Origin: Cucumis sativus
Taxonomy: Eukaryota > Streptophyta > Magnoliopsida > Cucurbitales > Cucurbitaceae
DNA: 64,000 nucleotides
Direction: 5' to 3'
Assembly (NCBI RefSeq): GCF_000004075.3
Contig: NC_026657.2
Coordinates: forward strand, 36,938,732 to 37,002,731
Shown here piece after piece: positions 12,051 through 62,154 of this stretch; within the stretch, counting starts at the first letter, position 1; each line of letters opens with the position of its first letter. The translations under genes and the position numbers were made by a program. The notes below the pieces were generated by a model. It did no database searches, was not told the origin of the DNA, and saw nothing but the letters and a program-made list of their open reading frames with translations.

Positions 12051-15000
12051 ATGGAAGAAATTGGTAATTTTAAGAAGCTGCACAATCACCCATTGATCCT
12101 TTACCAATACGGAAACCATAAAAATGGTGACGAGGTTTATTGTTCCAAGTGTCGTAAACCATGGCTTCCACCAGCGTTCAGTTGCTCTGACTCCGGCTGC
12201 AACTTCCATATCCATTTATCTTGCGTCGATCTTCTTCCCCAAATTCACACCCCTTTTCATTCCCATCACAAACTCCCTCTATCTCTCGTCCTCACCAACA
12301 CATTCTGCAAGTGCTGTGGCCAAAAGCCGACCGGAAAATCCTACTCCTGCCCTCAATGTGATTTCGTTATTGACCTACAATGCCTCATCGCCGACACCAA
12401 AGCCACCGGCTTAACCAAAATTCCCGGGGGTGACCAATTTCACCATTTTACTCATCCCCATCCGTTAACCTTTCTACAGCAACATTGGGGGAAAAACAGA
12501 ATCATTGTTTGCTCTGTGTGCCAGTTGCGTATCAAATCAGGTTCCGATTCTATTTCTTGTTACTTTTGCTCTCAATGTGATTCCCACTTTCATCAACAAT
12601 GTGCTGAATTTCCTCGTGAGATTATAAATTTTCGTTATCATCAACATCCATTATTTCTTTTTGCTCGATCATTTGAGAGTAACATACTTTGTAATAACTG
12701 TAGAAACAGTTGCTTCAATTTTTTCTACAGTTGTCCACCCTGTAAATTCAATCTTCATGTATCGTGTTTATCCTCATTCCACCACCAACATGACTTCATT
12801 AGATTGCACAAGGTATTTCCTTATAAATGTCAAATTTGTGGCCAGAATTCTGAGCCTGCAGTTCCTTGGTTCTGTAGCATTTGCCATCTTTTCGCGCATA
12901 AAAGTTGCGCCGAGCAACCAACCATTCTCCATACATTTGATCATCGTCATCCTTTAAGTCTAACGTTCTCTTGTCATCGTGATATTTGCAAAATCTGCAA
13001 TGGAAAGATAAACATGTCGTTTGCTAGATATGCTTGTCGGATTTGCAGTTATGATGCACATTTGAATTGTGCTAAGAGTCGAGAAAAAGAAGAGATGAAG
13101 GAGGAAATAATGCTGACAGAAGAAGAAGTTGGTGTTGGCATGAACAAAATTTTGCATTTTAGCCATAAGCATGAGTTGATTCTTCGGCCGGGGGAGGATA
13201 ATAGGATCTGTAATGGGTGTATGCAATTTATAGTGACTGAATATTATGGTTGTTCAAAGTGCAGGTTCTATTTGCACGAAGAATGTGCAAGATTCACGAG
13301 TCAATACAAAAAATTACTTTTTCATTCGCATAAGCTGAATATGGTTTATATCCCAGATTTTATTTTCTCATGTAGTGTTTGTCTTCAATACTGTCAAGGC
13401 TTCGCCTATAACTGTAAAGAATGTAGCTTTGCAATTGACATTCGCTGTGCTGCAATTACATTCCCATTTACACATTCAAGTCACAAACATCATCCCCTGT
13501 TTCATTACAGAGATAAAGGAAAACATAAATGTGGAGGTTGTGGAGAAGGGTTGAAGAACAAATTTGTATTTGGATGTGATGATTGCAACTTCTATTTAGA
13601 TGCAAAATGTGCAAATCTGCCACTTGCAGTAAGAAATAGATTTGATGAACATCCTCTAAGCCTCACATTTGTGAATAAAGACGAGGAAGGTGATGATGAA
13701 CATTATTGTGATATCTGTGAAGAAAAAAGAGAAAGAAATGAGTGGTACTACTGTTGTAAGATGTGCTATTTTGCAGCACATATGAAGTGTGCTCTTGGAG
13801 ATTATCCATTTCTGAAGTCAGCAAAGTTTGAAGGTCATAGGCATATGCTCAATTTGGTGAAAGAAGGTAAGAAAGGGTACTCTGCTTGTGGTAGTTGTGG
13901 TCATTCTTGTGAAGGCAATTTGGCTTTTGAATGTGGGAATTGCATTTGTAAGTTTAATGTTCATGCATTTGGGTTGTGCTATCACAAGCTGCTTACACAA
14001 GGCTCAATAACTTTCTCCATGCCTTCTCTTCACTCTCGTTCACTTCCCCTCTACTTGGACCCAATTCAAAGGTAAACAAAAGAGCGTATGAAGTGTTTTT
14101 GAAAGTGATCTAAAATTAGTTTTGAATGACTAAAAACATGTTTTTGAAGGTTAAGAGATTTGATTGGAACCCATGCTTTTATTTGTTACAAATGATATAT
14201 ATTATATATATATAGTATAACCTTTTCTTGGTTGATACGTAGAAAAAGGAGCAAGATTATTATGTTGTTGGAAGGAGAAGTGAAGCAAGGTGGTTGGAAG
14301 GAAAGAGGGTTCAATGGAATCAGAGAGTTCATGGTGAATCATGGACGATGGGCTGATTCCATTGGGATACAATACGAGGAAAATGAGAAGTCATCAGAAG
14401 AAAATCATGATGAAGATGATGAAGATACTGACGTGGAGATTCCAAATGTGGCCATGTCATTGGGAAAGTACGGAGGATTTGAAGGGGAGTATTGGGATGA
14501 TGCAGCCTTCTCTTCAATACAGAGCGTGGAGATTACTCATGAAAAAGCCATAAACTCCATAACAATTAAATATGACCAAAACGGACCGTCTGAAAGGCAC
14601 GGAGGAAATCGAGGTCGTCACACATCTACGGTCAGTAATGCTTATTTCAAGATTTTCATTTTTTTTTTAATTTAACAAATATATTGCTGAACTAAAAAAA
14701 AAAAGTAAATAAGAATTTTTTTGCATGAACTCTTCTTTTTGCATCCCACCTTCGTTACTCACATTAAACTAGAATTAAAATATTATAAAAAAAGAGAAGA
14801 ATTTTCCACATAGAACGTACGAAAACAAATATTTTTAATGTCTTTAACTTAGTTTTGTGTCAGGTAGATCTCCACTATTAGTTACTTGATTACAATGGCA
14901 TTTGATGTGGTGGTGAAAGCACTCAACTCACGAAACTAAAAGTTACAAAAATGGAAGAGCTTGTTAAAAGGAAAGTTATTATGAATAAAAAAATGAAAAA

Positions 15001-15455
15001 TATTTTTAAAAAATATAACAAAATTGGAGATTCTATTAATGAAATTTGCTACTTTTGAAAATGCGTCAAATGCAATGCTTTACTAGCTTGCTAGAAGTAT
15101 AAATATAAACGAGGTAAAATATGAGCTATTTTAAAATCCACCAGTAAGGTTATATATTAATGTTATAACAAGTGAAGAAAAATGACAGGTGGATCTTGAA
15201 TATCCAGATGAATACCTAATTTCAATAGTTGGATACATGGGTTACTATGGACAACACTATGTGATTCGATCCTTGAGTTTAGAAAGCAATAAACAGATTT
15301 ATGGGCCATTTGGTAGAGAAGAAGGAACAAGATTTGTGTTTCCTACAAGTGGTGCTAAGATTGTTAGTTTTCACGGTACATCTGGTCTTTACCTCAATTC
15401 TATTGGAATCAATGTTCTCCCCCTTCAAAACAACCTCAAAACCACTCCTCTTTAA
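12051..15455 (+). CDS. Gene 1: DC1-repeat / jacalin lectin chimera
   Basis: Three exons give an inferred 891-residue protein: 12051-14071, 14243-14630 and 15189-15455. Exon 1 encodes about eleven DC1-type zinc repeats (residues 12-665), each of the form HPL, CxxC, CxxC, then H/D-xx-C. Its donor (AG|GTAAAC) overlaps the stop codon AGG-TAA. The acceptor at 14242 follows a T-rich tract and restores the frame exactly. Exon 2 encodes a truncated jacalin N-half (about residues 685-722), an acidic stretch (723-738), then the N-half of a complete jacalin domain with GKYGG. Exon 3 gives its C-half (VDLEYPDEYLISI, YGPFG). The sugar-loop motif reads GLYLN instead of GxxxD, so binding may be weak or lost. 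No signal peptide is visible, so nucleocytoplasmic location is likely. If intron 1 is retained, a 674-residue DC1-only protein results. The domains are certain; the joined transcript is inferred from splice sites. Confidence 0.82.
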
Positions 15456-16321: not shown

Positions 16322-16506
16322 TATAAGAACTTCTAGGTCTCTCGACACAGATTTACACCATTGGAGAAACAAAGTCAAAAGATTAAGGCATCTTCTGACG
16401 TCGAAGTTGAAGTCGAGAGATATAGGATCTCAACGCATTAAAACGATGTTGGCCATTAGTATGGATCTCTTGATGTTGGGTTGTGTAGGCGTCGGAAGAT
16501 AGAAAC

Positions 16507-17790
16507 TGTCACACCCAAATCCGCAATACGACCAAAATGCCGAAGTAAAGCGGAAAAGGATGCGATTAGCTTAAACTTTGAAATTTTCTTACTGCAAATT
16601 TTATTCTCCTTCTTTTAAACTAACAACAAAACTCAAAATGCAACGATGATTAGCTTAAACGCCAAGTATAATAAATACATAAAAAAACATATACTTTATT
16701 AATAACAAACATTTAATACATAATTACAACACTTTGACCAAATAACTAAAGCCAACTTCTTATCACCATGTAGTCCCGTACACCCACTTTATGTGTACAT
16801 AAAAGTTAGTATCATCTCAAAGAAACAACTAATGGTTTGAAAACCATTTTATAGTATTGAAATCATAATTATCAAATCAAGCTTTAACATTATAAATCAT
16901 ACTTGAAACATATAAACTTTCATAGAAATCTCTTTTGAAACATTTTCATTTGAATTCTTCCTTCAAATTAGTAAAGAGAAATCATAATAAAGTTTTTAAC
17001 ATAGATTCATTTAAGACAAAACACTCATAAAACTTTGAAAGAAAAAGCACCCACCACACTTTACAGAAAATCCTCCCCCTCCTTCTTTTCTTGTGGAGCC
17101 CTCTTGCAGAACAAACTGCCGTGCTAAACACTTGGTTTTTCCTCTTCTCGCTAAAGCAAAACAATAGCATTTTTGCTTTTTTTTTTAATTAAAAAACTCT
17201 TGTGCTGACTTAATGACCAAGTCCTCTATTTATAGAGGCTTTAAACTATCATAGTCTTGCCTAAACTCTTCTCAATTCACTAACTCCTGCTTAGAACTTT
17301 ACACGTATAAATTTAATATTCAACCCAACTATGCTTAACAACTTAATATTACACGTTAACCTCTGTCAAATCAGAAATCTTCGTCAAACCTTTCTTCTCC
17401 TCTAACTCTATACTGTGAATAACTTTAACCAGTTAACACTTCTCGCAAATAACCTTATCGTGTGGTTATATTTTTTACTACAAGAAACCTTCCTTGCGAA
17501 CTAACCAACTTTTACTCGCTTAGAACTCTTATCGCGAACTTAAACTTCAAGGCTTCCTCGCAGATTTCTTCACCGTGAAACACTTGGTTCTTATCGTGAT
17601 GACTACCTAAACACCTTGTGTAACACTTAGTCAAAACTTCACTTCTTAACTTGCGCGAGGACTTTTTTTCTTCTTATCGCATTTCTTTTGCGAACTACTC
17701 ACTTAATCACAAAAACTTATACTTACCATAAAAGATTTTATCATTTAATCCTTTCCGCGTATTTTTTCAAACGTCAATTTCTTAATACAT
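16507..17790 (-). mobile_element. LTR-like repeat, copy 1 (3' truncated)
   Basis: It starts at TGTCACACCC and shares long collinear stretches with 53600-55028 and, inverted, 29150-30502: aaaatgcaacg, acatatactttattaataacaa, acataattacaa, taatggtttgaa-accatttta and a run of tcgcga-type motifs. All copies keep a TATA-like block; read on the minus strand it is CTATAAATAGAGGAC here (about 17224-17240). The LTR sense strand is therefore probably minus, giving TG...CA ends. The last ~80 bases present in copy 3 are missing. No coding capacity is seen. Confidence 0.6.
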
Positions 17791-18070: not shown

Positions 18071-18952
18071 GGGAAATTGCATAGAATAGCATTTTGAGAA
18101 TATGATATAGCAATTATAGCACATTGTTTTAGAATTTTGCAAATATGACAAAATTTTTACTTCTCCATCTTAAATTTGATATTATTCCTAAACTACCATT
18201 CAATAACTCATTTCTTTTTTTCTTTTCAATGTCCTACTCATTATTTATTTATGTTCCCCTTTTTAAGGCTTTAATAATTTGAATTTGATTACAAATGGTT
18301 TTGTTTTATTTTTTTACATTAATTTTTTTGTTTTACTTTGTCTCAGTTTCGTATATCAGTGTTGTGATATACTTATATAATATGTATTAGTTGGTTAATA
18401 TACTTACTACATGATTTTTTGTTTCTTCAAATTTTATGCAGTTCATTAGAGTATTATTAAGTATATGAATGATGTAACTCAGTATATCATTATCAAGTAT
18501 ATCAACAATATATTGTTAAAATATATCAGTAAAGTGAATCATTATTAAGTATATGAATCAAGTTTACAAGTGTATATCAATAGTATATCAAGTGTATAAG
18601 TAGGACTTCAAGCGTATCAAATGCATTTAATCAATCGATTGTATAAGTGAAGAATACTAAATGTATCTGCAGTGTATCAGGTGTATTAAACTTATATTAG
18701 TAATGTTTTGATATCAAGTGTATCAAAGAGTATCAGGTGCGTCAAGTGTATCAATCAAATGTATTGGATGTATCAAGAAGTATCAAGAGGTGTATTAGGT
18801 ATATTAGACGTGTATAAGGTGTATCAGACGTGTATAAGGTGTATCAAACGTATATTAGTAACAAGAGCATTTGTGACATTTTACCACTTGATGTGTGGGT
18901 TGAGCTTCGTTTTTGTCATTTTTGCAAATAATAAAATATGTGTGCTATGAAC
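18071..18952. mobile_element. Non-autonomous inverted-repeat element with internal GTGTATCA minisatellite, copy 1
   Basis: It begins gggaaattgcatagaa. The subterminal segment atagcacattg-ttttagaattttgcaaatatgacaaa matches the reverse complement of the right end (about 18911-18950: atagcacacat-attttattatttgcaaaaatgacaaa). From about 18480 to 18860 the interior is built of degenerate GTGTATCA(A/G)G units about 8-20 bases apart. Two related copies lie in tandem at 35081-37310. There is no transposase frame, so it would have needed proteins in trans. Confidence 0.6.
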
Positions 18953-19557
18953 TTAATTAAAATTTAAATCCCAAAGACATATATTTTATCATATCCATAC
19001 TTCAACTAAGCTAGGTTCCCAAATGGTAACAACACGCTAGTCAACAAGTCAAGTTAGTTTGAAAATAATGAGAAATACGAATGTTTGATGTCATCTACAT
19101 GAAAAAGTAGCCCGAAATGCAAAACTAAGAATGCATAAATGATGTTAAACTTTAATCTTAGCATGATATAAAAAAGATGCCTATAAATGGTGTAAAATAT
19201 GTAGTTTTGAATACAAATGCCTGGTAAAAAGATAAGAAAAAGATAGTTCTATGACAAATTTAGTATGAATCTCAAACAAAATTCATTACAAATCTCGGTC
19301 TAGATACATGTCATTTCTTCTTCTTCTTATTGTTATAATAATAAGAATTATTATTATCATATATTGAGATAGCTTGACCTATGAATAGAAAATGAAAAAA
19401 TATAGGAAAATGGCAGATGAGAGGTCATGTTCTGCCTCCCAAACATATGGATTCATTAATATTTTGTCAGAATGGACTTTAATTGTAAATCTTACTTCAA
19501 GGGGTTGGTTCAATTAACATCTTTTGTTGCTAGAAATGTTTTGAGGCAACGAGATTA

Positions 19558-20144
19558 ATGGGCGGAATTAAAGAAGCAAAAAAAGAGGAGGGATGTGCGA
19601 AAACCTTGTCGTTTAAACCAAAAGGAAGTAGTGGTGGGAACGATTGGGATGACGGAGTTTATTGTGACATAAAAATGTTGGAAATTCAATTTGGAGGAAG
19701 GTGTATTGATGCAATTCGATTCCAATATGAAGACAAATATGGAAATTCTATTACGCCTCAAAAACATGGTGGAAATGAAGGCAAACGAATCATTCAGGTA
19801 ATATTAACTTTTCCCTCAAACTCCTTTTTCTACTCTTGTTCAAAAACCCTTAATTTATAAGCTTAAAAATGCAGATTGGATTGAATTGTCCAGATGAATA
19901 TCTTATTTCAGTTCATGGGTACCATGGCAACATATACGATCAATTTGGGAATCCCACGCACGTGATTCGGTCATTAACTTTTGAAACCAATAAACAAAGT
20001 TTGGGTCCGTATGGGATTGAAGAGGGAATCAAGTTTTCGTTCCCAACCACTGGACTCATCAAGATTGTTGGGTTCCATGGCAGGTCTGGTTGGTTCCTTG
20101 ATGCAATTGGATTCCACTTCCTTCCCATATCCATTTCAAAATGA
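19558..20144 (+). CDS. Gene 2: single-domain jacalin-related lectin
   Basis: Two exons, 19558-19797 and 19875-20144, give a 169-residue protein that is one complete jacalin beta-prism. The N-half has SSGGNDWDDG and QKHGGNEG. The intron (CAG|GTAATA to TGCAG|A) sits in phase 0 just before the LNCPDEYLISVHGY strand, as in every jacalin domain of this cluster. The C-half has RSLTFETN, GPYG and the sugar-loop GRSGWFLDAIG, so GxxxD is intact and mannose-type binding is plausible. There is no signal peptide, as in the nucleocytoplasmic JRL group. An in-frame stop at 19531 limits upstream extension. Because genes 4, 6 and 7 start with a tiny separate exon, an extra upstream start exon cannot be excluded, but this ATG is adequate. 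Confidence 0.88.
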
Positions 20145-22328: not shown

Positions 22329-24356
22329 ATGATGAAATGGGAAGCTTTGGAGAAGCCACACCCACATCCATTGACATACATAGAAGAAAAGACAGAGAGC
22401 CAAGAAGATATGTTCTGTTATATCTGCAAAAAACCACTGTATCCCCCAGCTTTCATTTGCTCTACATGCAAATTTTACGTTCATCAATCTTGCATCTACT
22501 TCCCTCCTCAAATCCAGTCTCGTTTCCATCCACAACATTTTCTTTCCCTCGATGAAAGCAACACCGACCATTGCCATTGTTGCTGGCAAATGCCCCGTGA
22601 TTGCTTCTACACCTGCTCCCACCCTTATTGCAGATTCATCATTGACATCAAATGTCTTCTCGCTGACACTAAAACTCCTGGCTTGAACTCAATAGGCAAA
22701 CATTTCAGTCATTCACATCCTTTCATCCTTGAGAAGGATATATCTACAGCAAAGTTGGTTGTTTGCCATGTTTGCGGAATGCTTCTTCCTTTTGGTCCTG
22801 CTTACTTTTGCTCGGAGTGTAATATCCGCTGTCATAAAGCTTGCGGCGATCTGCCGCAAGAGATATTACAACTCAACCAACACTATCACCCGCTCTTCCT
22901 TTTTCCCTATGCTAAGCCAAAATCTTTTTGCAATAGCTGCAAAAATGAATGTTCACAATTCGTTTACAGTTGTGTTCAGTGTAATTTCAATCTCCACGTG
23001 ACGTGTAGAGCATCTTCAAATCACAAACACAACTTCACTAGACTTCGAACTATGATTAGATTTAAGTGTCTGTTATGTGGTTGGTGGGGACATGATTTTC
23101 CATGGTTTTGTAATATTTGCCATCTCTTGGCTCATGAGAAATGCGCTGAATTGCCCCCATCCCTTTTGGTTGTTGGACACGACTGTCCTCTCAATTTCAC
23201 ATACTCTCACCCTTTTGTGAATCAGAGCAAGTTAGCTTGTGATATATGCAGAAAGAAAGTTGAACCACAGTTTGCAGCATACAGTTGTTCCAAATGCAGC
23301 TATATCGTTCATTTGAATTGTGCTGGGAAAAAGTATTTGAAGGGACTACAACAACATGATGGGCGTTTATATATAACCAAAAAAGACACATTAAAAACTT
23401 CATTTCAAACCTACTGCATCAGAGATGGAGAAGCAATGCCCAATGATTTTTCAAACAAAACGCTTGAACTTCAGACTCTGCATTCAAATTGTGAACAGGG
23501 GTTGATCCTAAACAAAGACGAGCGTAACGATGATAAACAATGTCATGGATGTATGCAACGGTTTCCAATCACTGAGCCATCTTACTCTTACAATTGTGCT
23601 AAATGTGGTTTTTTTCTTCACAAAGATTGTGCTGATTTGCCAATTACAAAGAGGCACCAACTTCATAAACATTCTTTAACTCTTGTAGCAACACAAGATG
23701 TGGCATTTCAGTGTCATGCTTGTCTGCAAGTCTGCCATGGCTTTGCCTACCATTGTGAAAAGTGCCTCTATACCCTCGACCTTCGCTGTTTCATGATCAA
23801 AACCAAGAAATTGAAGCATCCAAGCCACCGGCACCTACTGTCTCTTGCTCAAAACCACGATGACCAACAATGTAAAGGTTGTGGCCAGAGCAACAAGACA
23901 GTGTTCGAATGTGACGATGGCTGCAGCAACTTCTCTTTGGACTACAGATGTGCAACTCTGCCGCAGAAAGTGAGATGCAAGTTCGATGGTAGTTTGTTGT
24001 ATTTGCGTTTCTATGTTGAAGATGAAACAGGTGAATATTACTGTGATGTATGTGAAGAAGAGAGAAACCCAAATGTATGTTTTTATCACTGCAAGACATG
24101 TCATTTAATGGCCCATCCTGAGTGCATTCTTGGGGAGTATCCATGGCTCAAGTATGGATCATATGAAACTCACAAGCATCCGTTGGCTCTTGTGACAGAG
24201 GGGAAGAAGAATTTCTCTGATTGTGATCATTGTGGGAAACCTTGTACCGGCAACTTGGCCTATGAATGTCGTCGTTGCAAGTTCAATGTCCATGCTATTG
24301 GGCGATGTTACCACGATCAGATACTGAAAGGCAAACTAAGTTTCATGATCAAGTGA
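22329..24356 (+). CDS. Gene 3: DC1-repeat protein without a lectin domain
   Basis: A single uninterrupted exon encodes 675 residues with about eleven DC1-type zinc repeats. Examples are HPLTY followed by CYIC, HPFILEKD with CHVCG, HPLFLFPY with CNSC, and the last repeat HKHPLALV with CDHCG and KFNVHAIGRCYH. DC1 repeats coordinate two zinc ions through Cys and His and are related to diacylglycerol-binding C1 domains. Some plant members act in defence-related cell death or gametophyte development, but most are uncharacterised. It closely matches the DC1 parts of genes 1, 5 and 8 along its whole length. It stops in KLSFMIK, about 16 residues before the point where the others splice to jacalin. 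The next 8.5 kb holds no jacalin exon. Either it keeps the pre-fusion state or it lost its lectin exons. The first of two adjacent ATGs is chosen. Confidence 0.88.
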   Translation: MMKWEALEKPHPHPLTYIEEKTESQEDMFCYICKKPLYPPAFICSTCKFYVHQSCIYFPPQIQSRFHPQHFLSLDESNTDHCHCCWQMPRDCFYTCSHPYCRFIIDIKCLLADTKTPGLNSIGKHFSHSHPFILEKDISTAKLVVCHVCGMLLPFGPAYFCSECNIRCHKACGDLPQEILQLNQHYHPLFLFPYAKPKSFCNSCKNECSQFVYSCVQCNFNLHVTCRASSNHKHNFTRLRTMIRFKCLLCGWWGHDFPWFCNICHLLAHEKCAELPPSLLVVGHDCPLNFTYSHPFVNQSKLACDICRKKVEPQFAAYSCSKCSYIVHLNCAGKKYLKGLQQHDGRLYITKKDTLKTSFQTYCIRDGEAMPNDFSNKTLELQTLHSNCEQGLILNKDERNDDKQCHGCMQRFPITEPSYSYNCAKCGFFLHKDCADLPITKRHQLHKHSLTLVATQDVAFQCHACLQVCHGFAYHCEKCLYTLDLRCFMIKTKKLKHPSHRHLLSLAQNHDDQQCKGCGQSNKTVFECDDGCSNFSLDYRCATLPQKVRCKFDGSLLYLRFYVEDETGEYYCDVCEEERNPNVCFYHCKTCHLMAHPECILGEYPWLKYGSYETHKHPLALVTEGKKNFSDCDHCGKPCTGNLAYECRRCKFNVHAIGRCYHDQILKGKLSFMIK

Positions 24357-30502: not shown

Positions 30503-30564
30503 ATCACTCACCACAATTCACCAAAGATCCTCCTCTTTCTAGGCACCCAACCTTATTCATACAC

Positions 30565-30775
30565 TATAGATCGTTTGGGCTATATACTCAAACTTGATCC
30601 ACATTTATGTCTCTACATAAATTAAAGTTCAAGGCTACTACATAACCCGGGGTCCTAGTTTATTGGATTCAAGATTATAATATTCTATTTTCACCGATAA
30701 GTCCTCAATAACAACTTTATTGAATATAATATAATTTTAAACTACAAACTACGCGACATAAATTCCAACAGAATG
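30565..30775 (-). repeat. Retroelement-like repeat, inverted copy of 44180-44375
   Basis: In reverse complement this matches 44180-44375: caataaagt-gttattga, ataatcttgaatccaataaact, ttcaaggct, actttaatttatgtagagac and ggatcaagtttgagtatata. Probably two fragments of the same LTR-type element. No coding potential. Confidence 0.5.
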
Positions 30776-32952: not shown

Positions 32953-34173
32953 ATGGTAAATATACATTAGCTCTTGTTCTGTCCTCGGGGGTCTCTGATT
33001 TAGCTTTCCGTTGGTGCAGGAAGATGAGGTGGTGGTGGTGAAGTTTGGGATACGAGGCTGCGAAGAGGCTCCGCGTCGTTGGGATGACGGAGCTCATTCC
33101 ACCATCAGACAGATCGTGATTACTCATGACAAATGTATCTACTCAGTCAATATCGAGTATGACAATAATGGTGAATCAATTTGGAAGCCCAAGCATGGTG
33201 GAAACAAGGGTTCCACTTCTGAGGTTACAACACAACAATCCCCAAATTATTCTATCTCCAGTACTTCTAAATAATATCTATTCATTTTATTGGAGTCGAG
33301 TGATAAATTGCAGGTTGTTTTAAATTATCCAAACGAGTACCTGATTTCAATCCATGGCTACTACAGTGACATAGGACACATGATGGAGAAGAGAGTTCTA
33401 ACTCCAACCACAGTGATTCGATCGCTAACTCTGGAAAGTAATATAAAAACTTACGGACCATTTGGGATGGACGAAGGAACCAAATATTCGTTCCCAATCA
33501 TGGAGGCGAAGATCGTTGGATTCCATGGGAGTTCTGGTTGGTTTCTTGATGCAATTGGAATCTATGTACAACCAATTTCCTCTTCCCAGTCGGTGCAACC
33601 TGCTCAACATAAATTTGAAATGACTGAAGTTGAAATTAATGAGCCTTTTAGTTTAGGAGAATATGGTGGGGAAGATGGGGAACCATGGAGTGAGAGTTTT
33701 CAAGCAATCAAACAGTTGTTGATTCATAATGATGAACATCGGATTGTTTCTATCCAAATGGAATACGTGGATGAGAATGGGCATTTTGTTTGGTCTCACA
33801 AACATGGTGGAGACGAAGGTTCTCCATCCCAGGTTAACTTTTGTTATTATTGAATAATTATTGATTTTTTAAACATTTACAAAGTTAACCTAAACAGACT
33901 CTTAATCTTAATCTTTCGTAGGTTGTTTTTGAATTTCCAAATGAGTATCTAGTTTCGATTCATGGCTACTACAAATCTGAACTGGGTACCATTGTGATCC
34001 GATCCTTGACTTTTGAAACCAGTAAAACTAGTTATGGGCCATTTGGGAATGAAGATGGAACCAATTTTTCATTCCCAACTGCTGGGTTGAAGATTGTTGG
34101 CATCCATGGAAGATCCAACACTTCGCATCTCAATGCCATTGGACTCCTTGTGGCATTGATTCAACATTATTAG
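32953..34173 (+). CDS. Gene 4: two-domain jacalin-related lectin
   Basis: Four coding exons: 32953-32955, 33020-33223, 33314-33832 and 33922-34173, giving 325 residues. The first coding exon is only the ATG, directly followed by donor GTAAAT. Exon 2 starts in phase 0 with EDEVVVVKFG. Domain 1 spans residues 6-158 and domain 2 about 180-324, each interrupted by the conserved phase-0 intron before VVxxPNEYL. Unlike genes 6 and 7, no intron separates the two domains: exon 3 runs from the C-half of domain 1 through a linker (SSSQSVQPAQHK) into the N-half of domain 2. Domain 1 keeps the sugar-loop GWFLD, although its N-terminal GG loop is replaced (GIRGCEE). Domain 2 has NTSHLN there, so it probably does not bind sugar in the usual way. 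No signal peptide is visible, so cytoplasm or nucleus is expected. Confidence 0.85.
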
Positions 34174-40309: not shown

Positions 40310-43261
40310 ATGGAGTTTGACCTTGTGAATCGTCCACATCAACACCCATTGTTCTTCAATGAAGACGGTAGAAAAATCAATGGTGAAGTAGCTTTTTGCT
40401 CCCGATGCCGTCAACCACTCCGGCCACCGGCGTTCACCTGCTCCAACTTCGATTGCAACTTCCACATCCATCAATCATGTCTCCACCTTCCTCCTCAAAT
40501 CCACTCCCCCTTCCACCCCTTGCACCCTCTTTTCTTAGAAACCAACAACTATTTCTGTACCGTCTGCTGGCAAATGCCTTCTGGCGACGTTTACCGATGC
40601 CGTAAATGCAATTTTCAAATCGACATCAAATGCGTTCTCACCGACACCAAATCCAGCGGCTTACGTCGTATCTCTGGCGATCAGTTTCGACATTTCAGCC
40701 ACCCACATCCATTAACTCTTCAACTAGAAGAAAACAGAGGAAAAAATAGAGTGGTTTGTTTTGTGTGTGATTTGCTTATAAAATCAACCCCTTCTTACTT
40801 TTGTTCACAATGTGACAATCATTTCCATCAAGGATGTGCGGAGTTACCACGCGAGTTGTATGATGTTCGATTTCATCAACACCCTTTATTTCTTCTTCCC
40901 AATCTTAGCTTTGCTAATTTCCTCTGTGATAGTTGCAACAACAACTGTAGAAAGTTTGTTTACAGTTGCCCTCATCCTCGACATTGTAAATTCAATCTCC
41001 ATGTAGCTTGTTTACAATCTTTCAATCACGAACATAATTTCACTGCGTTTCGGAATGCAATGGATTCTTTTGATTGTCGAGTTTGTGGTAAGAAAGGCAA
41101 TGGATTCCCTTGGTTTTGTGAGATTTGTCATATTTTAGCTCATAGAAAATGTGCTAAATCGCCATTAACTCTAAGGACAGTTGGACACCATCTCCATGAT
41201 CTTACTCTCACCTACTTTCGTGATAATGTCCCGAATCATACTCGTTATTGTAAGATCTGTGGCGAGAAACTAGAAATGAAATTTGCTGGGTATGGCTGTT
41301 ACGAATGCAATTACTTTACCCATCTGGATTGTGCTGAAACCCAACGCTTTGACCTACAATCTACTCCCATAGTTGATTTGACGACGAATCATTATTCTTC
41401 TAACAACGAACATGACAATGAGATTCAATGTTCTGTTCATTCCCATAACTTGAATTTGACGATGGGGATTAGGAGAAAAGGAGATAGAATTTGTGATGGG
41501 TGTTTAAAGGGTCTTTTAAGTTCATCTTATGGTTGTCAGCAATGTGATTTCTATGTCCACAAAGAATGTGCTAAATTGCCAAAAACTAAAACTCATTTCC
41601 TCCATCAGCATTTACTCACTCTCATCTCAATCCCGAATTTCATCTTCCATTGTGAAGCTTGTCACGAATACTTCCACGGCTTCGCATACCACTGTAAAAC
41701 ATGTCTCTCAACATTCGACATTCGTTGCACTTCAATTAAAATCCCATTTAAACACCCGGGTCATCAACATCCCCTGTCTCTTGACAGAACAAATGAAGAA
41801 CACAATTGTGAGGCATGTGGAGAAGGGGTCAGAAACAGAGTATCATTTCGATGTGTTGACTGCAACTTTTATTTGGATGCGAAATGTGCAACGCTGCCAC
41901 TTACAGTAAGATACAGATTCGACGCGCATCCATTGAATTTGACATTTGTAGAGGAAGAGGAAAGCGATGAATATTACTGCGATGTTTGTGAAGAAGAAAG
42001 AGAGCCATGGTTGTGGTCTTATAGTTGTCGAATTTGCTGTTTTGAGGCGCATTTGGGTTGTGTTCTTGGAGAGTTTCCGTTTGTAAAATCAAAGATTCAT
42101 GAAGCTCATAAGCATCCGCTGAGTATGGTAATGAAAGGGAAAGAACAAATGAATTGTGGGAGTTGCAATGAATGGTGTGATGAGAATTTGGCGTTTCAAT
42201 GTGGAACTTGTAAATTCAATGTCCATGCAATTGGACGTTGTTACCAACAGCAGCTAAAACAGGGGAAGCTTGCATATACACAGCGGTATTTTTACTCTCG
42301 TGGAGTTGAACTCTATGAGCGGCCAACTATATAGTAAGCAATTTCACTTTCATGCAATTCTAAAAAATGCAATTTCATCTATGCAATCCATTAAAAAAAA
42401 ACACTTTCAAAATGTTTATTTTACTTCTTTTACTTTGTTTTGATACATTGAAAATGCCTATTTTGGTGCTTATACTTTTAATAAGTTGTGAAGTGATCCA
42501 TTATCGTTTTTTTCTTAAATATGCATACAAAAATTGACAGAAGTTAAAAGGGTAAGGGCTAGAATGAATATCTTTTAGTGTATAGACCAAAACAAATTAA
42601 CCAAATTAGAAGTGAAGTATAATATAATTTATTGTTATTTTTTAACATTTTTAAATTTTTTTTCTGTTATTAGCCAAACTATAGTCTAACTAATAGTTAT
42701 TTGAAACAAGCTCCCCTATTCGTGAACCATTGAGGCTACATGGAGGCAAAGGGGGAAATTCATGGGAAGAAAAGGTTTTCACAACAGTTAGGACATTTGT
42801 TGTTTATCATCAACAATGTGTCCATGCCATTCAAATTTATTATGAGAAGAATGGGAAAGCTATTTGGTCTGCTAAGCATGGTGGAGATGGTGGAACCAAA
42901 TATGAGGTGGTTGTTTAAATTCTTTTTACTTTAAAGATTTGTTTGGATTGACTTTTCAAATGCTTGAAAATATCTATGGGATCTAAGTTAATTCCAATTT
43001 TTGTTGCAGGTTGTATTTGATTACCCATATGAATATCTTGTTTCCATTCATGGCTCCTATAACAATGTAATGGAACTTGAAAGAGTTGTTATCGAATCAT
43101 TGACACTAGAAACCAATAAAAGAGTTTATGGGCCTTTTGGAATTGAAGATGGAACAAAATTTTCAATCCCCAACAAGAGAGTGAAGATTATTGGTATCCA
43201 TGGAAAATGCAGTTCATATCTTGATTCAATTGGGCTCCTTACTCTTTCAACTCGATCATAA
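40310..43261 (+). CDS. Gene 5: DC1-repeat / jacalin lectin chimera
   Basis: Three exons, 40310-42333, 42711-42906 and 43010-43261, give an inferred 823-residue protein. Exon 1 encodes about eleven DC1 zinc repeats, from HQHPLFF with CSRC near the start to CGSCNEW and KFNVHAIGRCY near its end. Donor GTAAGC (42334) overlaps the in-frame TAG. The acceptor after 42710 (aaacaag) joins phase 2 to phase 2 and yields the bridge ERPTI-YSPIREPLRL. Exons 2 and 3 form one full jacalin domain (about residues 682-820) with LHGGKGGNSWEE, AKHGGDGG, DYPYEYLVSIHG and YGPFG. The sugar loop reads SSYLD where GxxxD is usual, so the Asp is kept and the Gly lost. The intron-2 donor (GAG|GTGGTT) is weak but in the conserved place. 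The ATG has good context (catccATGG). Domain content is certain; the fusion is inferred from splice signals and from agreement with genes 1 and 8. Confidence 0.83.
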
Positions 43262-44179: not shown

Positions 44180-44375
44180 CCTAAAACTCGTGGTTTGTAA
44201 TCATATTCTATTCAATAAAGTCGTTATTGATACTATAATCTTAAAGCCAATAAACTAAGAATTCAAGGCTATTATTAAGTAAACTTGAACTTTATGTAGA
44301 GACATAAGAGTGGATCAAGTTCGAGTATATAGCCTAAATAGTCTATAGTATATGAATACGATTGGACACCTTATT
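44180..44375 (+). repeat. Retroelement-like repeat, second copy
   Basis: Inverted counterpart of 30565-30775, with the shared words attcaataaagtcgttattga, ataatcttaaagccaataaa, tatgtagagacataa and gtggatcaagtt. No coding potential. The following ~800 bases up to gene 6 hold only AT-rich DNA. Confidence 0.5.
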
Positions 44376-45227: not shown

Positions 45228-47200
45228 ATGGCATGTTCAAATTTCATTTGTTACTTCTAACTCCTCTTCAACTTTCACTCAGCCAGTTTCTGATTTCATT
45301 TTTTCTTACCGCAGGAAAACCACGATCCTCAAAATCCGTTAGCATCTTTCACTTGGGACGACGGAGCTTATTCGACAATCAGACGGATCGTAGTTTACGA
45401 GAAAGAGTGGATCTGTTCGATTCAGATTGAATATGATGGGAATGGAGAATCAATTATGTCGGAAACACATGGTGAAAACGAAGGTTCTATGTCGGAGGTC
45501 AGTCAGAGCAAAATCCTAGATTCTTAAACTACCATTATCTATAATAATCAGTTTGCACATTCAAATCCCTTCTTTAAACCAATTCATTGTAGGTGGTCTT
45601 CGAGTATCCAGACGAGTTCTTAGTTTCTATTTCTGGATACTATGGTTCTATACGTAATTGGGGAGTCGATCGCATCGTCATTCGATCATTGACTTTCGAA
45701 AGCAACGGTAGATATTATGGACCCTTTGGAATTCAAGAAGGGAAATATTTTAAATCTCCAGGTACTGAGGGGAAGATTATTGGGTTCCATGGCATATCTG
45801 ATCCCTACCTCAATGCAATTGGAGTTCATGTACAAACAGTTCAAAAGTATGTAGCGAGATGTTATGCCCTTTTGAATCTATATATTTAGCATCAAATCAA
45901 GATAGGAATGGCATATACTAATTCAATTTATTGATTGAATATACTGACATAACGTGTAGATTGGGGATCCAGCCTGAGCCGCCGAAGCCCTTAAACATGG
46001 GACAATATGGAGGCAAAGGAGGAAATCCTTGGAAAGAAACTTTTGAAACAATCAAACGGGTGAGGATTTATCATGGCCTTTGGATTGACTCCTTTCAAAT
46101 ACAATATGAGGAAGTCGATGAAATGGGAACGTTAGTATGGACCGAAATTTATGGTGGTGAGGGAGGTTTTCTAGCAACGGTTAGCCCAAATCTTTCATTA
46201 TGTTGTTTTTTTGCCAGTTATAGTTTCATTTTATCATGCGAGGAAATTTACAAATAAAAATGTTATGGGATTTGACAATTTTGGAATGGAATACAGGTTG
46301 ATCTGGAATTCGATGAGTATTTTATTTCGGTTGAAGGCTACTACAGTGACCTACAAAAGTGGGGAATGGATGCGACTGTGATTCGATCCTTGACACTGAA
46401 AACCAATCAAAATACTTACGGGCCATTTGGGATTGAAGATGGAACCAAATTTTCATTTCCATTTAAAGGGCTAAAGCTAGTTGGCTTTCATGGAAGATCT
46501 GGCGTGTATCTGGATGCAATTGGGCTCTACTTACGACCAACTCCAATGTAGGCTTAGCTATATTTTGATGATGCCATTGAGTTATGATTCTGAAATGACT
46601 AATTGAGTTTCTCATGCAGAAATGGGACTGAGAAATTTAGCTTAGGAGAATGTGGAGGCGAAGGTGGAGATCCTTGGGATGAGAATTTTACGACAATCAG
46701 GAAATTGGTGATTAATCATGGACAGTGGATCGACTCCATTCAAATGGAATATGAAGATGAGAATGGAGAGGTAGTCTTGTCTGAGAAGCATGGTGGAAAT
46801 GGAGGTTCCGAATCAGAGGTTAGCCCAAAAATCCCTCATTAAGTTACTTTCTGTTTTTGGTTGTCTTGTTAACTTGCTTTTGTTCATTATTAGATGATGA
46901 ATGTTCTAGTTGTTTAATAATGTGATTAAAATGGAAGTGTAGGTTGTTCTAAATTTCCCAGATGAGCATATTGTTACAATTCGTGGCTACTATGATAATC
47001 TACGAGACTGGGGACTTGATACCATTGTGATTCAATCGTTGACTGTGGAAACGAACACAACAAGTTATGGGCCATTTGGGGTAGAAAATGGAACAAAGTT
47101 TTCATTCCCAAGTGATGGAGTGAAGGTCGTTGGCATCCATGGCAGATCTGGTTTGTATCTCGATGCCATTGGACTGATGGCAGTTCCAGTTGAAGACTAG
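45228..47200 (+). CDS. Gene 6: three-domain jacalin-related lectin
   Basis: Seven coding exons: 45228-45230 (ATG only), 45315-45497, 45593-45846, 45960-46179, 46297-46547, 46620-46818 and 46943-47200, giving 455 residues. Intron phases run 0,0,2,0,2,0, so each jacalin domain is a two-exon cassette. Domains lie at about 10-146, 158-303 and 308-455. Domain 1 lacks the usual N-terminal GG loop (it opens ENHDPQNP) and has DPYLN in the sugar loop, so it is probably a non-binding domain. Domains 2 and 3 keep GRSGVYLDAIG and GRSGLYLDAIG. The first intron would use a GC donor (ATG|GCATGT). That is the weakest point of the model, but ATG-only first exons are also implied in gene 4. The donor after domain 2 (AT|GTAGGC) overlaps an in-frame TAG. 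No signal peptide is seen. Confidence 0.8.
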
Positions 47201-47895: not shown

Positions 47896-47976
<81 letters not shown>

Positions 47977-49973: not shown

Positions 49974-52570
49974 ATGCTCGTAAGTGTACCTAATAGCTTT
50001 GCTCTATAACGGATTACCAACTATTTTTGTGATTTCCCATTTTCTTCCTGCAGGACGACGAAGAAGTTTACCCGCAGACGACGGTGAAGATTGAGGTGTT
50101 TGGAGCCAAAGACGGTGGTCAACCTTGGGACGATGGACCTTATTCCACCATCAGACGGCTTCTAGTTTGTCACAACCACTGTATCTGTTCCCTTCAAATC
50201 GAGTATGATAACAATGGCCATTTAATTTCTCCTTCAAAACATGGCGGAAACGAGGGTTCCTCTTCTAAGGTACCACCAAACCCTAATATTATTCAATTTT
50301 CTTATTCTCTTTGATATTTCTCGAACTGGTTTGATGGTTCTCAGGTTGTTCTCGATTACCCAAACGAGTACCTAATTTCAATTTATGGTTACTACGGCTA
50401 CATAGGTAAGTGGGGAATTGCAGCCAATGTGATTCGTTCCTTAACTTTCCAAACCAATAGAAAAACTTATGGCCCATTTGGGATGGAAGAGGGAGCCAAA
50501 TTTTCATTCCCGATTATGGGGGCTAAGATTGTTGGCTTCCATGGAAGATCTGGCTGGCTCCTCGATGCAATTGGCCTTTATATACAGCCAATTCCAAAGT
50601 AAATTACATCGCATACATATGATCTTCTACTTCTACTTGTTTGCTGCAAAATATGAACAGAAATTAATGAATGGATTCCATTGAGATTCTGTGATGCAGA
50701 GTCGAACTCAAGAACTTCAGCTTGGGGCCTTTTGGAGGCAAAGGTGGGCATCCATGGGAGTATGTCTTTCGGTCAATCAGACGATTTGTAGTTGATCATG
50801 AACAGTGGATTCACACCATTCAATTTGAATATGAGGATAGGAATGGAAAGTTATTATGGTCAAAGAAGCATGGTGACACTAATGGAAAATCCAAATCAGA
50901 GGTTATGCTTATACCTCAAAATCCTCTAATGAACTACTCTGCCCATAACTTGTTTGTTGAAATTCCCAACTTGGGCATTTTGCTTTCCATGGTAGGTGTT
51001 GCTAGAATTCCCAGATGAGTATTTTGTTTCTATTCATGGCTACTACAGCCACATACGTTTTTTGGAAGATTCTGCCACTGTGATTCGATCACTGACATTC
51101 AAAACTAATAGAAGAACATGTGGGCCTTTTGGAATTGAAGATGGAATCAGATTTTCGTGCCCAGTTATGGGGAGAGATATCGTTGGTGTTTATGGCAGAT
51201 CTGGTTTGTGCCTTGATGCGATTGGACTCCACTTAGGAACAACTCTAAAGTATGTAGCCCATCTTTATTCTTTAATTTTCTGGATATCATATTTTATTTA
51301 TTTGATATAAACAAATAGAATGTCTACCTTTTATGCTCATTTCGTTTGATTCTGTCGTCTGTGTCGTCTTATTATTTTCAGTTTTCTCTTGTCTTTTTCA
51401 TGTTTCAATTCGGTTTTCTAGAACATCATTTTTTTAATCAATGGATATTCAACAATATATACACACACATATATTTATAAAATGTTTATAGTATCGTTAA
51501 TGAATGAAATTATTACACATGGTCACGTGGAAGCGTTAAGTTAGTAAAATTAAAACTAATGCATGATGTGGACTTTCAAACATGCTGCTGCATTTATTAT
51601 CCAAAAACAAAAAACGTCTGGATCTGACGATTAGCTTCTTTTGAGCTATATTCAACTTAACAATTAATCAATGTATAAGCAAATTAGTTGAGCAATATAT
51701 TGAAATTATGGTTCATCATAGGTTACCTTACTTCAATTATAAAGATTTAGGAAGTTAATTACTGGTTTACCTGTCTTAAAATTTTGTTATATTTCTGATC
51801 AACCTTTTTTTATTATACATTTAAAATTTGTTTAAACAAAGTTACCCATTGAATATTTTCTTAATAGTAAATATGTTCTAGTCAACATATAAAACTTGTA
51901 ACTGTTTAATAGTAAGAAGTCATTGCTTTATGCAGCATGAAGGCTGAGCCGGAGCCTGTGGCTCCACCAGCACCCCAAATCCAAATGGAGCAATCTAAAC
52001 TGAGACAATATGGAGGGGAAGGTGGAGAGGGTTGGGAAGATATGTTTCAGACAATAAGACGGTTTGTAGTTCGTCATGGAGTATGGATAGACTCCATTCA
52101 AATTCAATATGAAGATAATAATGGAAACTTAGTGTGGTCTAACCAGCATGGTGGAGATGGAGGATCCAGATCAGAGGTTAACCCAATTCTTCCTTTTTAC
52201 TCCTCTCCCCACAATTTGCTTCCTCTTGCTGAAACTTTCAAGTTGCTTTTGTTGTTGGGTTAATCTAAAAATAATTGAATAAGAAATTCATGGTGTACAA
52301 ATGTAATTGCAGGTTGTTTTAGAATTTCCAGATGAGTATCTTGTATCGATTCATGGCTACTACAGTGATCTTGAACGATGGGGACTTGCAACAAATGTGA
52401 TTTGCTCCTTAACTTTGGAAACTAATAAGAAGAGTTATGGGCCATTTGGAGTTGAAGATGGTTTCAAATTTTCATTTCCAACTGTTGGGTTGAAGGTGGT
52501 TGGCATTTACGGTAGATCTGGTTTGTTTCTTGATGCCATTGGAATTCACGTTGTGTCGATTCAAGAGTAG
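49974..52570 (+). CDS. Gene 7: three-domain jacalin-related lectin
   Basis: Seven coding exons: 49974-49979 (ATG plus one codon), 50054-50269, 50345-50598, 50700-50901, 50996-51249, 51936-52176 and 52313-52570, giving 476 residues. The first donor is a perfect GTAAGT. Phases are 0,0,2,0,2,0 as in gene 6, and two of the phase-2 exons are exactly 254 bases, as is the matching exon of gene 6. Domains lie at about 13-158, 165-310 and 334-476, with a Pro/Ala/Glu-rich linker (EPEPVAPPAPQIQ) before the third. All three sugar loops keep GxxxD (GWLLD, GLCLD, GLFLD), so it is a possible trivalent, cross-linking lectin. Domain 2 has KHGDTNG where the others have KHGGxxG. Intron 5 is 686 bases. No signal peptide is seen. 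It is probably a tandem duplicate of gene 6 with a better-preserved first domain. Confidence 0.88.
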
Positions 52571-53599: not shown

Positions 53600-55028
53600 T
53601 GTCACACCCCAAATCGTATTGCAACCAAAACGCCGAAGAAATGGGATTAGGATGCGAGTTAGCTACAACCTTGAAATTTTCTTATCACAAATCTATTCTC
53701 AACTCCTTTTAAACTATTAACAACACTCAAAATGCAACGGTGGTCAATGTAACACCAAATAAAATAAATACAAACCAAAACATATACTTTATTAATAACA
53801 AGCGTTTCATACATAATTACAATACTTTGACTAAATAACCAATGCTTAACCATTTTCAAAACTCCTTGAATCACCTCGCTGAAAATCCTTCAACCTTCTT
53901 CTCTACTTGGCCTTAACCATTGCCAAAACTTCTTTTCATAATCATTTAGCAAAAATAATATCAAATCATTTAAACATACCGACAAATCATTTCATTTCGC
54001 ATAAACATTTTTTTTATGCTTAACAAATCATTTTTTTTTCAAGGATCTCGAATCGTTCTCTACGCTTGGCCTCATATTACCTCGCATTTAGACTAGTTAT
54101 CAACAACATCCAAGAACATACAGTTTCGTTCTTGTTATTCAGGCCACTAAGTTTTATACCTTTCTTTCAATGCATTAGGCAGCTTTTCATCATTATGTAG
54201 ACCGTACACCCCATGGTGACATTGACTCTTTATGTGCACATAAAAGTTAGCATCATTTCAAAGAAATAACTAATGGTTTGAAGACCATTTTATAATATTG
54301 AAATCATTATCATCAAATCAAACTTTAACACTATAAATTATGCTTGAAAACATAACATTTCATAGAAATCTCTTTGAAACATTCTCATTTGAATTCTTCT
54401 TTCAAGTAGTAAAGAAAAATCATAATACAGTTTTTAACATAAATTCATTTGAGAGAAAAGCGCTTACAAAACTTTACTAAAGAAGTCCTTCTTCTTCTTC
54501 TCGCATTGCTAAAGTAGCAGAACTTCAACATTTGAACAAAAATCTCATCATCACCTCCTTAGTGACCCAAATCATATTATTTATAGAGTCCTTAAACTAA
54601 CTTTGCCATGCATAAAATCTTCTCAGTTCGTCAGCTCCTGCTTAAAACTTTACACGTGTAAATTTAATATTCAACCTAACCATTCTTTATCCTTAATCTT
54701 ATACGTTAACCTCTGTCAAATCAGATTTGACATTTTCTTCGCCAGACTTTTCTTCTCGCCCAACTCCATTATGCCAATGCCAATACTTATAGGTCCTACC
54801 GCAAACCCTTCTTTTTTCAAATTTCTTAGAAATTAACTTCTTAATCACAAAACTTATATTTAACCATAAAAAAAATTATCTCTTAATTCTTTTCGCGAAT
54901 TAATTCAAATCTCAACTTCTTATCGCGAAGTCTTACTTCAAAACAACTCCTCTTATCCAAAACGCAGTTTTTCAAAACTTTTAACTAGATTTTAAATTCT
55001 TTAACTCAAATTAGAAATGGGTCTTACA
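53600..55028 (-). mobile_element. LTR-like repeat, copy 3 (most complete, about 1.43 kb)
   Basis: It runs from TGTCACACCCC to GGGTCTTACA, so it has TG...CA ends. In the minus sense it reads TGTAAGACCC to GGGGTGTGACA, with a TATA-like CTATAAATAATATG near 54575-54590. It is homologous to 16507-17790 and inverted 29150-30502. Flanking five-base words (aaaca left, atatg right) do not match, so no target duplication is seen. It directly abuts a copia pol relic on the right, which suggests insertion into or recombination with that element. Confidence 0.6.
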
Positions 55029-55034
55029 ATATGT

Positions 55035-59185: not shown

Positions 59186-62154
59186 ATGGATTTTGACCTT
59201 CTCAACCACCCCCATCCCCACCCCTTGTTCTTCCTTGAACAATCCAAGAATGATGAAGTGGTTTTCTGTACTAGGTGCCGTCGACAGTTGCGTCCCCCGG
59301 CCTTCACCTGCTCTGACTCCCTCTGCAACTTCCATATCCATCAATCTTGCATCGATCTTCCTCCTCAAATCCACAACCGCTTCCACCCTCAACATCTTCT
59401 TTCCCGGACCACCAACAACTACCACTGTGTTCCCTGTTCGCAAATGCCGTCAGGTGATGTTTATATCTGCTCTCAATGCTGTTTTCAGATTGACGTCAAA
59501 TGCGCTATCGCCGACACAAAAGCCAGTGGTCTACGCAGGATGAATGGTAACGAGTTTCGCCATTTCAGCCATCCTCATACATTGACCCTTCTTCAGCCAG
59601 AACAAAACAGAGAAACTGATGAAATTGATTGTCTTGTTTGTGGATTGTTTATTAAATCAGGTTCTTCTTATTACTTATGCTCTTTTGGTGATTCCCGCTT
59701 TCATCAACAATGCGCTGAACTTCCGCGCGAGATGTTAAACTCTGATTTTCATGAGCACCCATTATTTCTTCTTCCCTCTAGCCCTCCCCAAACCATTTGT
59801 AATAGTTGCAAAAATGACTGTGGAGAGTTTGTCTATAACTGTTCCTTGTGTGATTTCAATCTTCATATCGCTTGCTTACAATCTTTCAAACACAAACACA
59901 GCTTCACCAAATATAGGAATAGGACACAGTTTTTTTGTCGAGCATGTGGTGAGAAAGGCGATGGATTCTCATGGTATTGTATCATTTGTCATCTTTCTGT
60001 TCATGAAAAGTGTGCTAAAATGCCGTTAACTTTGAGGATATTTGGACACCGACTCCATGATCTTAGCCTCACCTATTTTCGAGATAGGGTTGATTTTGTT
60101 GGCAACAAGATTGACTGCAAGATCTGCGGGGAGAAAATAAGGACCAAATATGCTGCATATGGTTGCTACAAGTACAATTGCAACTACTTTGTCCATTTGG
60201 ATTGTGCTCTAACCCAGCGTATCGACTTTAACTCGACAGTGGATGCTCTTGATTCTACCAATGATGAAGACGTCAAGATTGAGATTTCTGGCTCGGAGAT
60301 TCAACATTTCATTCATCATCATAGCTTAAATTTATTTTCCTCTGAGGAGGAGCTTGGACAGGACAGAGTTTGTGATGGCTGTATGAAGCGCCTTTCAGGT
60401 CCATCTTATGGCTGTGAGGAGTGTGATTTCTTTGTCCACAAAGAATGTCTTGAATTGCCTAGAAAGAAAAGGAACTTCATCCATCAGCATAGCCTCGATC
60501 TCATATCAATCCCAAATTTCGTCTTCCAATGCCAAGCTTGTCTCAAATATTTCAATGGCTTTGCCTACCATTGCAAAACATGTCTTTCCACATTCGACAC
60601 CCGATGCACCTCAATCAAAATCCCATTTAAACACCCTGCTCACCAGCACCCCTTATCTCTTGACCGAACAAACGAAGACCACAAATGTGAAGGTTGTGGG
60701 GAGGGGGTGAAGCACAAGGTAGCGTTTCGGTGTGTCGATTGCGACTTCCATTTGGACGCAGGATGTGCAACTCTGCCACTTGGGGTAAGATACAGATTCG
60801 ACCCACATCCTCTAGATTTGACATTTTTTGAAAATGAAGAAGAAGAAGAGTATTGTTGTGAAATCTGTGAGGAAAAAAGAGACCCGGGGCCATGGTTCTA
60901 TGGCTGCCAAAAGTGCAATTTTGCTGCACATTTGGACTGTGCTGTTGGGATGTTTCCGTACGTGAAGTTAAAGAAGCATGAAGCTCATAAGCACACTATG
61001 AAACTGGGAGTGAAAGGGAGGGAAGAGGATTGTATGGCTTGTGGTGAATCATGTGCTGAGGATTTGGCCTATGAATGCATTTCCAATTGCAAGTTCAAGG
61101 TGCACGCCACTGGGCCGTGTTACCACAGCCAGGTAGTTATGGGAAGCCTGGCTTTCACCAACCGTTGCTTTTACTCTCGAGGAGTTGGACTCCCCCAACA
61201 CACAATTCAAAAGTAAGTATGCCCATGATCCACAGTTTTAACTATCATTTGTGAACTATCTTGTATTTATTTTGCTAATTTGCTTCAAGATCTTTATTCC
61301 AGAAGAAAGTGATGATATATAAATATTTATGTTAGATGCTTTATCCATTGAGCCATACTCTGACAACCTTTTAGGTAGTTAGAATACGTAAATAAAGGTT
61401 AATAAACACTTTTGGTAAGGTGTTTTATCCATTGAGCCATGCACTTTAGTTCGATTTAATCCTATAACCTTGAATTTTGTAATTTGGTCATTCATCTTTC
61501 ACCTTTGGTCATTTGATAGCGAGCGCATTATTATTAAAATTGGACCCTATGGAGGTGGAGGTGGAACTGCTTGGAAAGAAAAGATTTTCACGTCAATCAG
61601 AGCATTTGCTATTGATCATGCAGCATGGATCTACTCAATTCAATTTCATTATGAGAAAAACGGCCAGTTGATATGGTCGGTGAAGCACGGTGGAGATGGT
61701 GGTTCCAAATCTGAGGTTTACTCTAAACTCTTCACAAATCTCCTATTGTTAAATTTGTCTGTCTCAATCAGATTGAGATTCTAATATAACTTGTTGGAAA
61801 TTCTTGATCTATCGTATTTTATGAAAATGTTTTCCAAGACTTAAAAGGAGATGGAATCTGATTGAAGTAAGTGATGCGGAATTGCAGGTTGTTTTTGATC
61901 ATCCAGATGAATATATTGTTTCAATTCATGGCTATTATAGTTCCTTAAGGAATTGGGGATTTTCAGGCTCTATTGTCCGATCACTGACATTGGAAACAAA
62001 TAAAAGAAGTTATGGGCCGTTTGGTGAAGAAGATGGAACCGAATTTTCAATCCCAACGGGAAAGAAGTTCTGTGGCCTCCATGGTAGGGCTGGTTCTTTT
62101 CTTGATTCAATTGGAGGCTACGCTTTTTCCACACGACACCCTCATCCTCTTTAG
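59186..62154 (+). CDS. Gene 8: DC1-repeat / jacalin lectin chimera
   Basis: Three exons, 59186-61212, 61520-61715 and 61888-62154, give an inferred 829-residue protein. The open frame continues upstream of 59186 without another ATG, so the ATG at 59186 (MDFDLLNHPHPHP) is the start. Exon 1 holds about eleven DC1 zinc repeats and is closest to gene 5: both contain FAYHCKTCLSTFD and HQHPLSLDRTNE. The donor AA|GTAAGT is near-perfect and overlaps the stop AAG-TAA. The acceptor tttgatag|C joins in phase 2. Exon 2 is 196 bases, exactly as in gene 5, and with exon 3 makes one jacalin domain (about residues 680-825) with IGPYGGGGGTAWKE, VKHGGDGG, DHPDEYIVSIHGYY and sugar loop GSFLD, so GxxxD is intact. 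Of the three chimeras this has the best splice signals and the best-preserved lectin site. No signal peptide is visible. Confidence 0.86.

Follow-up and report, generated by a model that had tools for sequence, protein, structure and literature searches.

Chimeric jacalins already described

In grasses, jacalin domains occur in dirigent-jacalin, NB-ARC-jacalin and kinase-jacalin proteins (PMC5485960; NLR-jacalin, PMC4759884). A further architecture, C1-like(1-3)/DC1/jacalin, is listed with three cucumber members in Table 2 of Van Holle et al. 2017 (PMC5485960), a table of the most common architectures, and with none in Arabidopsis, soybean or either rice. The same source counts five jacalin-only proteins in cucumber and cites an earlier survey of that species (Dang and Van Damme 2016). 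Here we analyze a 64,000-nucleotide stretch of the Cucumis sativus genome (C3:36938732-37002731, in a 226.6-Mb genome of 88 contigs; hereafter the window, within which all positions are given). A plantacyanin exon of this genome agrees with PDB 2cbp, cucumber basic protein, at 61 of 65 residues. The window carries a mixed tandem cluster of DC1 and jacalin genes, and in three of these (genes 1, 5 and 8, numbered along the cluster) a DC1 exon is followed by jacalin exons that join to it in frame.

The original prediction suggested that the combination of DC1 and jacalin might be an uncharacterized architecture; the three cucumber proteins of PMC5485960 had already put it in print. The architecture is thus catalogued, and what the locus adds is the origin of the junction. 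The published proteins have the same architecture as genes 1, 5 and 8 and the same counts (three fusions and five jacalin-only), and it is on these counts that their identity with our genes rests. The parts of PMC5485960 that present the architecture and a jacalin tree do not cover the junction, its tail, its intron phase or its origin. As chimeric lectins the fusion genes are ordinary in kind: like the grass proteins, they pair jacalin with a stress or defence module. They differ in that the partner is DC1, and the three grass architectures have zero members in cucumber in Table 2 of PMC5485960. With plant DC1 (CHP/CHR) proteins such as pepper CaDC1 and Arabidopsis VLG and BNP, they share the Cys/His-rich DC1 repeats (PMC10707348). 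They differ from these in having 11 repeats plus a lectin, whereas the account of DC1 proteins in PMC10707348 mentions no lectin domain. No functional study of the DC1/jacalin architecture was found in searches of open-licence papers.

Gene structure of the three fusions

Genes 1, 5 and 8 have three exons each: a long one that encodes the DC1 array, then two that encode jacalin sequence.

12051..14071, + strand: gene 1 exon 1, DC1 array of 11 C1_2 stretches with a jacalin-like tail
14036..14071, + strand: gene 1 jacalin-like tail, the 36 nt at the 3′ end of exon 1, interpreted as the relic end of a jacalin C-terminal exon with its phase-2 donor
14072..14242, + strand: gene 1 DC1/jacalin intron, 171 nt, phase 2
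14243..14630, + strand: gene 1 exon 2, half jacalin domain, acidic linker and N-terminal half of a complete jacalin domain
14262..14387, + strand: gene 1 orphan N-terminal half jacalin domain, with an in-frame ATG at its start; groups with non-first-type domains
15189..15455, + strand: gene 1 exon 3, C-terminal half jacalin domain, GLYLN in place of GXXXD
40310..42333, + strand: gene 5 exon 1, DC1 array with a jacalin-like tail (42298-42333)
42334..42710, + strand: gene 5 DC1/jacalin intron, 377 nt, phase 2, weak AAG acceptor
42711..42906, + strand: gene 5 exon 2, N-terminal half jacalin domain, lacking an in-frame ATG
43010..43261, + strand: gene 5 exon 3, C-terminal half jacalin domain, SSYLD in place of GXXXD
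59186..61212, + strand: gene 8 exon 1, DC1 array with a jacalin-like tail (61177-61212)
61213..61519, + strand: gene 8 DC1/jacalin intron, 307 nt, phase 2
61520..61715, + strand: gene 8 exon 2, N-terminal half jacalin domain, lacking an in-frame ATG
61888..62154, + strand: gene 8 exon 3, C-terminal half jacalin domain, GSFLD, a canonical GXXXD

The joined models are free of internal stops over 12051-15455 (gene 1), 40310-43261 (gene 5) and 59186-62154 (gene 8) and encode 891, 823 and 829 residues, respectively. As originally predicted, the DC1 and jacalin exons join in frame at 14071/14243, 42333/42711 and 61212/61520, across GT-AG introns that are of phase 2 in all three genes; the introns within their jacalin domains are of phase 0. 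Each DC1 exon contains 11 stretches matching C1_2 (PF03107; E 2.5e-74, 8.2e-82 and 5.6e-79 for genes 1, 5 and 8), and each joined lectin part yields one match to Jacalin (PF01419; E 2.6e-39, 5.9e-39 and 9.9e-41), and in every joined model the two domains share one reading frame. In gene 1, the orphan half jacalin domain at the start of exon 2 runs into a strongly acidic linker (14262-14450).

The phase of the junction can be compared with that of jacalin genes lacking DC1. Two three-jacalin genes of the cluster (45315-47200 and 49974-52570) have the same domain exons and inter-jacalin introns of phase 2 in four of four cases, while within-domain introns are of phase 0 in 12 of 12. In the three-jacalin gene on C2, both inter-domain introns are of phase 0, and for this reason the phase-2 junction points to the cluster's own genes. 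The three DC1-jacalin fusions are, judged from their sequences, very probably real, and we consider it likely that they stem from a single exon-joining event inside the mixed DC1/jacalin cluster.

A jacalin-like tail on the DC1 exon

In each of the three fusions, the DC1 exon closes with ~10 codons that look like the end of a jacalin C-terminal exon, and they do so in the register set by the donor. In a gapless, donor-anchored comparison with four jacalin C-terminal exon ends, the last 10 residues have mean BLOSUM62 scores of 15.2, 10.8 and 10.5 (genes 1, 5 and 8), and the highest score at 12 other offsets is 6.2. The observed sum was matched by one of 20000 joint shuffles. At the DNA level, the tails are identical to the four jacalin exon ends at 15-21 of 30 nt, and their mean identity over these 30 nt exceeds that of every in-frame background window from the DC1 exons. 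The register specificity of the tail is hard to explain otherwise, and the 3′ end of the DC1 exon appears to be the remnant of an older jacalin domain.

The idea that the tail is a by-product of the donor consensus was rejected, as the joint signal persists without the last two residues (10 of 20000 shuffles). Two points tell against the remnant: the signal is weaker once the last three residues are removed (69 of 20000), and the tail statistics are post hoc, since the likeness was noticed ahead of testing.

The C-terminus of the cluster's DC1-only gene (22329-24356) has a negative tail score in all nine registers tested, and in the alignment this gene stops just short of the tail segment. It was also considered as a fusion that had lost its lectin; its 3′ flank aligns loosely with those of the fusions, and an 8-nt gap is needed.

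Splice sites and constraint on the lectin part

For splice-site scoring, a small model was trained on 18 of the cluster's introns. The original prediction called the donor and acceptor sites credible, which is borne out for all three donors, whose scores are equalled by 0.2%, 6.8% and 1.4% of + strand GTs in the window (genes 1, 5 and 8), and for the gene 1 acceptor, with 7.3% of the window's AGs scoring as well or better; it does not extend to the acceptors of genes 8 and 5. By summed score, the predicted splice pair ranks first in gene 1 and second in gene 8. In gene 5, the pyrimidine content of the acceptor (0.44) lies inside the range of 18 other introns (0.22-0.89), and CTRAY motifs are located 21 and 25 nt upstream of it.

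Selection was estimated from the ratio of nonsynonymous to synonymous substitution rates (dN/dS). For the DC1 exons this is 0.16-0.26 in five of six pairs, the sixth being saturated, and for the jacalin parts 0.26-0.43 in three of three pairs. Across the four DC1 exons, 196 of 627 gap-free columns are invariant, and 84 of these 196 are Cys or His, the putative zinc ligands. In alignments inspected by eye, the GG loop is present in all three lectin domains. The GXXXD motif, a common carbohydrate-binding motif of mannose-binding jacalin members (PMC4059138), is intact only in gene 8, having changed from D to N in gene 1 and from G to S in gene 5. Among solved structures, the mannose/glucose-specific lectin 1zgr is the closest in sequence to the lectin part of gene 8.

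Several of these features count against functioning fusions. As many as 43% and 88% of the window's AGs score as well as or better than the acceptors of genes 8 and 5; the gene 5 splice pair falls outside the five best in-frame pairs of its gene by summed score, and no acceptor among the 18 other introns shares its AAG context. Poly(A)-like motifs lie in the first introns of gene 8 (AATAAA at 61391 and 61401) and gene 5 (ATTAAA at 42390), so that early polyadenylation is possible there. The open reading frames end at 14075, 42334 and 61216 (genes 1, 5 and 8), such that a retained first intron brings a stop at the donor or one codon past it. Given the weak acceptors, the poly(A)-like motifs and the early stop on retention, a DC1-only product may be common. 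The altered GXXXD of genes 1 and 5 belongs with these points, as does the roughness of the dN/dS values, for which dS is mostly above 1.

One alternative is built from the same features: the fusion was formerly used, and its jacalin part has since begun to decay or is largely skipped, with the DC1-only form as the actual product. The weak acceptors of genes 5 and 8, the stop that follows each donor, the altered sugar motif in two genes and the existence of a DC1-only paralogue are all in keeping with it. Intact reading frames in all three jacalin parts and the dN/dS of 0.26-0.43 argue otherwise, and we regard decay as unlikely.

History of the three copies

The original prediction described the copies as independent-looking. 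The breakpoint and the gapless jacalin-like tail are common to all three DC1 exons, and for this reason the copies appear to be duplicates of a single fusion. With 43-62% identity between DC1 exons and dS at or above 1.2, the copies are old.

In the jacalin tree, the domains of genes 5 and 8 group together (support 94/93) inside a clade of non-first domains (96/96). The idea that the complete jacalin domains of all three genes form one clade was rejected. The extra half jacalin domain at the start of gene 1 exon 2 falls on the non-first side of the split (84/95), and there is modest support for the view that this half domain explains why the complete domain of gene 1 is missing from the clade.

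The tree also supplies the evidence that weighs against a single origin. The complete domain of gene 1 lies outside the gene 5/8 group, and the three are united in 0% of 200 bootstrap trees. The placement of the half domain involves only ~40 residues on a long branch, with no starred branch in the tree; 20% of 200 bootstrap trees group it with genes 5 and 8, and the domains against which it scores highest in pairwise comparison belong to the three-jacalin genes. Three independent fusions by recurrent exon capture would suit the position of the complete gene 1 domain outside the gene 5/8 clade, where the starred branches force two changes. Recurrent capture fits poorly, however, with a gapless tail and an identical breakpoint in all three DC1 exons and with the non-first-type half domain that gene 1 keeps beside its junction (84/95), and we find it improbable. 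The simplest history suggested by the sequences is one fusion and two duplications, with a later rearrangement of gene 1.

The joins and chance

In-frame joining alone is weak evidence, because open in-frame GT/AG pairs are frequent near all three junctions (22 of 127 in gene 1, 12 of 198 in gene 5 and 17 of 171 in gene 8), and it was rejected as a proof of fusion. From the upstream stop to the end of the exon, neither gene 5 nor gene 8 has an in-frame ATG for its jacalin exon; the gene 1 jacalin exon has three, the first at 14262. A further 5, 7 and 6 ATGs lie within the first introns of genes 1, 5 and 8, and together with ATG 14262 these make a private first exon for the jacalin part possible. 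The joins are nevertheless above chance in view of the common donor position and phase, the likeness to jacalin inter-domain donors and the two jacalin exons of three that lack an ATG; the original prediction of DC1-jacalin structures with a single junction phase (phase 2 in three of three) is upheld in this respect. That the DC1 and jacalin parts are separate genes with their own promoters, joined in frame by chance, would suit the frequent open pairs, the weak acceptors of genes 5 and 8 and the available ATGs, but it is very improbable in the face of ATG-less jacalin exons in genes 5 and 8, a donor and tail resembling jacalin inter-domain exon ends, a shared phase, introns of just 171-377 nt and published cucumber proteins that join both domains (PMC5485960).

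The cluster and its surroundings

The cluster comprises eight modelled genes, all on the + strand, in the order gene 1, a single-jacalin gene, the DC1-only gene, a two-jacalin gene, gene 5, two three-jacalin genes and gene 8. The five that are not fusions are as follows.

19558..20144, + strand: single-jacalin gene
22329..24356, + strand: fourth DC1 gene, DC1-only, 11 C1_2 stretches, lacking the jacalin-like tail
32953..34173, + strand: two-jacalin gene, lacking an inter-domain intron
45315..47200, + strand: three-jacalin gene, both inter-domain introns of phase 2; the first-exon model is uncertain
49974..52570, + strand: three-jacalin gene, both inter-domain introns of phase 2

In the two-jacalin gene, domain 1 continues straight into domain 2 (33314-33832), the inter-domain intron being absent. 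Genome-wide, all jacalin matches (at least 28) are found in the window or at one C2 locus, C2:19030850-19033180 (L027), which holds a three-jacalin gene with five modelled introns, all of phase 0. With this gene included, the genome contains five jacalin-only and three DC1/jacalin genes, match counts being lower bounds.

A Tubby-family exon (PF01167, E 1.4e-75; 62944-63603, - strand) adjoins the downstream end of the cluster. A dispersed repeat, possibly a transposable element, has pieces at ~16615-17602 and ~53600-54674, each inverted relative to ~29172-30502 and 78-89% complementary to it. A further repeat pair of 75 nt is formed by 30547-30621 and 44291-44365. A three-copy repeat (18073-18959, 35082-36172 and 36212-37008) has pieces that are 64-93% alike and is adjoined by arrays whose short unit resembles GTGTATCAAG (35933-36060 and 37079-37270). 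Tandem arrays are located at 4857-5888 (~117 nt, 8.6 copies) and 37914-38343 (139 nt, three copies). An Rfam scan of the window gave zero matches at gathering scores.

Proposed origin and function

The single fusion event would have joined a single-exon DC1 gene to a tandem-jacalin gene, ~12 codons short of the point where the last exon of a jacalin domain ends. The DC1 exon would thereby have taken over the phase-2 donor of that exon and its inter-domain intron and would now splice to the next jacalin domain. The captured donor likely came from a tandem jacalin gene of the kind found at 45315-47200 and 49974-52570. The fused unit would then have been duplicated, and in gene 1 only half of the captured domain would later have been left, with a complete first-type jacalin domain behind it. 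The fusion origin is backed by sequence; the order of events is one that we infer.

The predicted product is a protein of ~820-890 residues, in which an 11-repeat zinc-binding scaffold could make contacts with protein, lipid or nucleic acid, and the C-terminal jacalin domain would carry this DC1 scaffold to mannose-type glycans in stress or defence. We only infer this glycan-recruitment role. Diacylglycerol binding by DC1, stated in PMC5485960, is not used here because PMC13033517 calls it unclear. No signal sequence is apparent by eye in the fusion proteins, and the cytosol or nucleus is proposed as their location for that reason. Pepper CaDC1 is reported to be necessary for defence and cell death (PMC10707348), and defence modules are among the domains that accompany jacalin in other plants (PMC5485960; NLR-jacalin, PMC4759884); by analogy, defence would be the likeliest setting. 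Intron retention would yield a DC1-only form. A more speculative version, which we think doubtful, is that of an old cucurbit exon capture in which splicing switches between a free DC1 array, on retention, and a glycan-targeted array, with sugar binding diverging among the copies (canonical in gene 8, altered in genes 1 and 5).

The junction would thus amount to a fossil-like record of the birth of a chimeric lectin, in which a neighbouring gene's exon inherits the donor and phase of an old domain. Its structure makes transcript, glycan-binding and cucurbit-wide tests straightforward.

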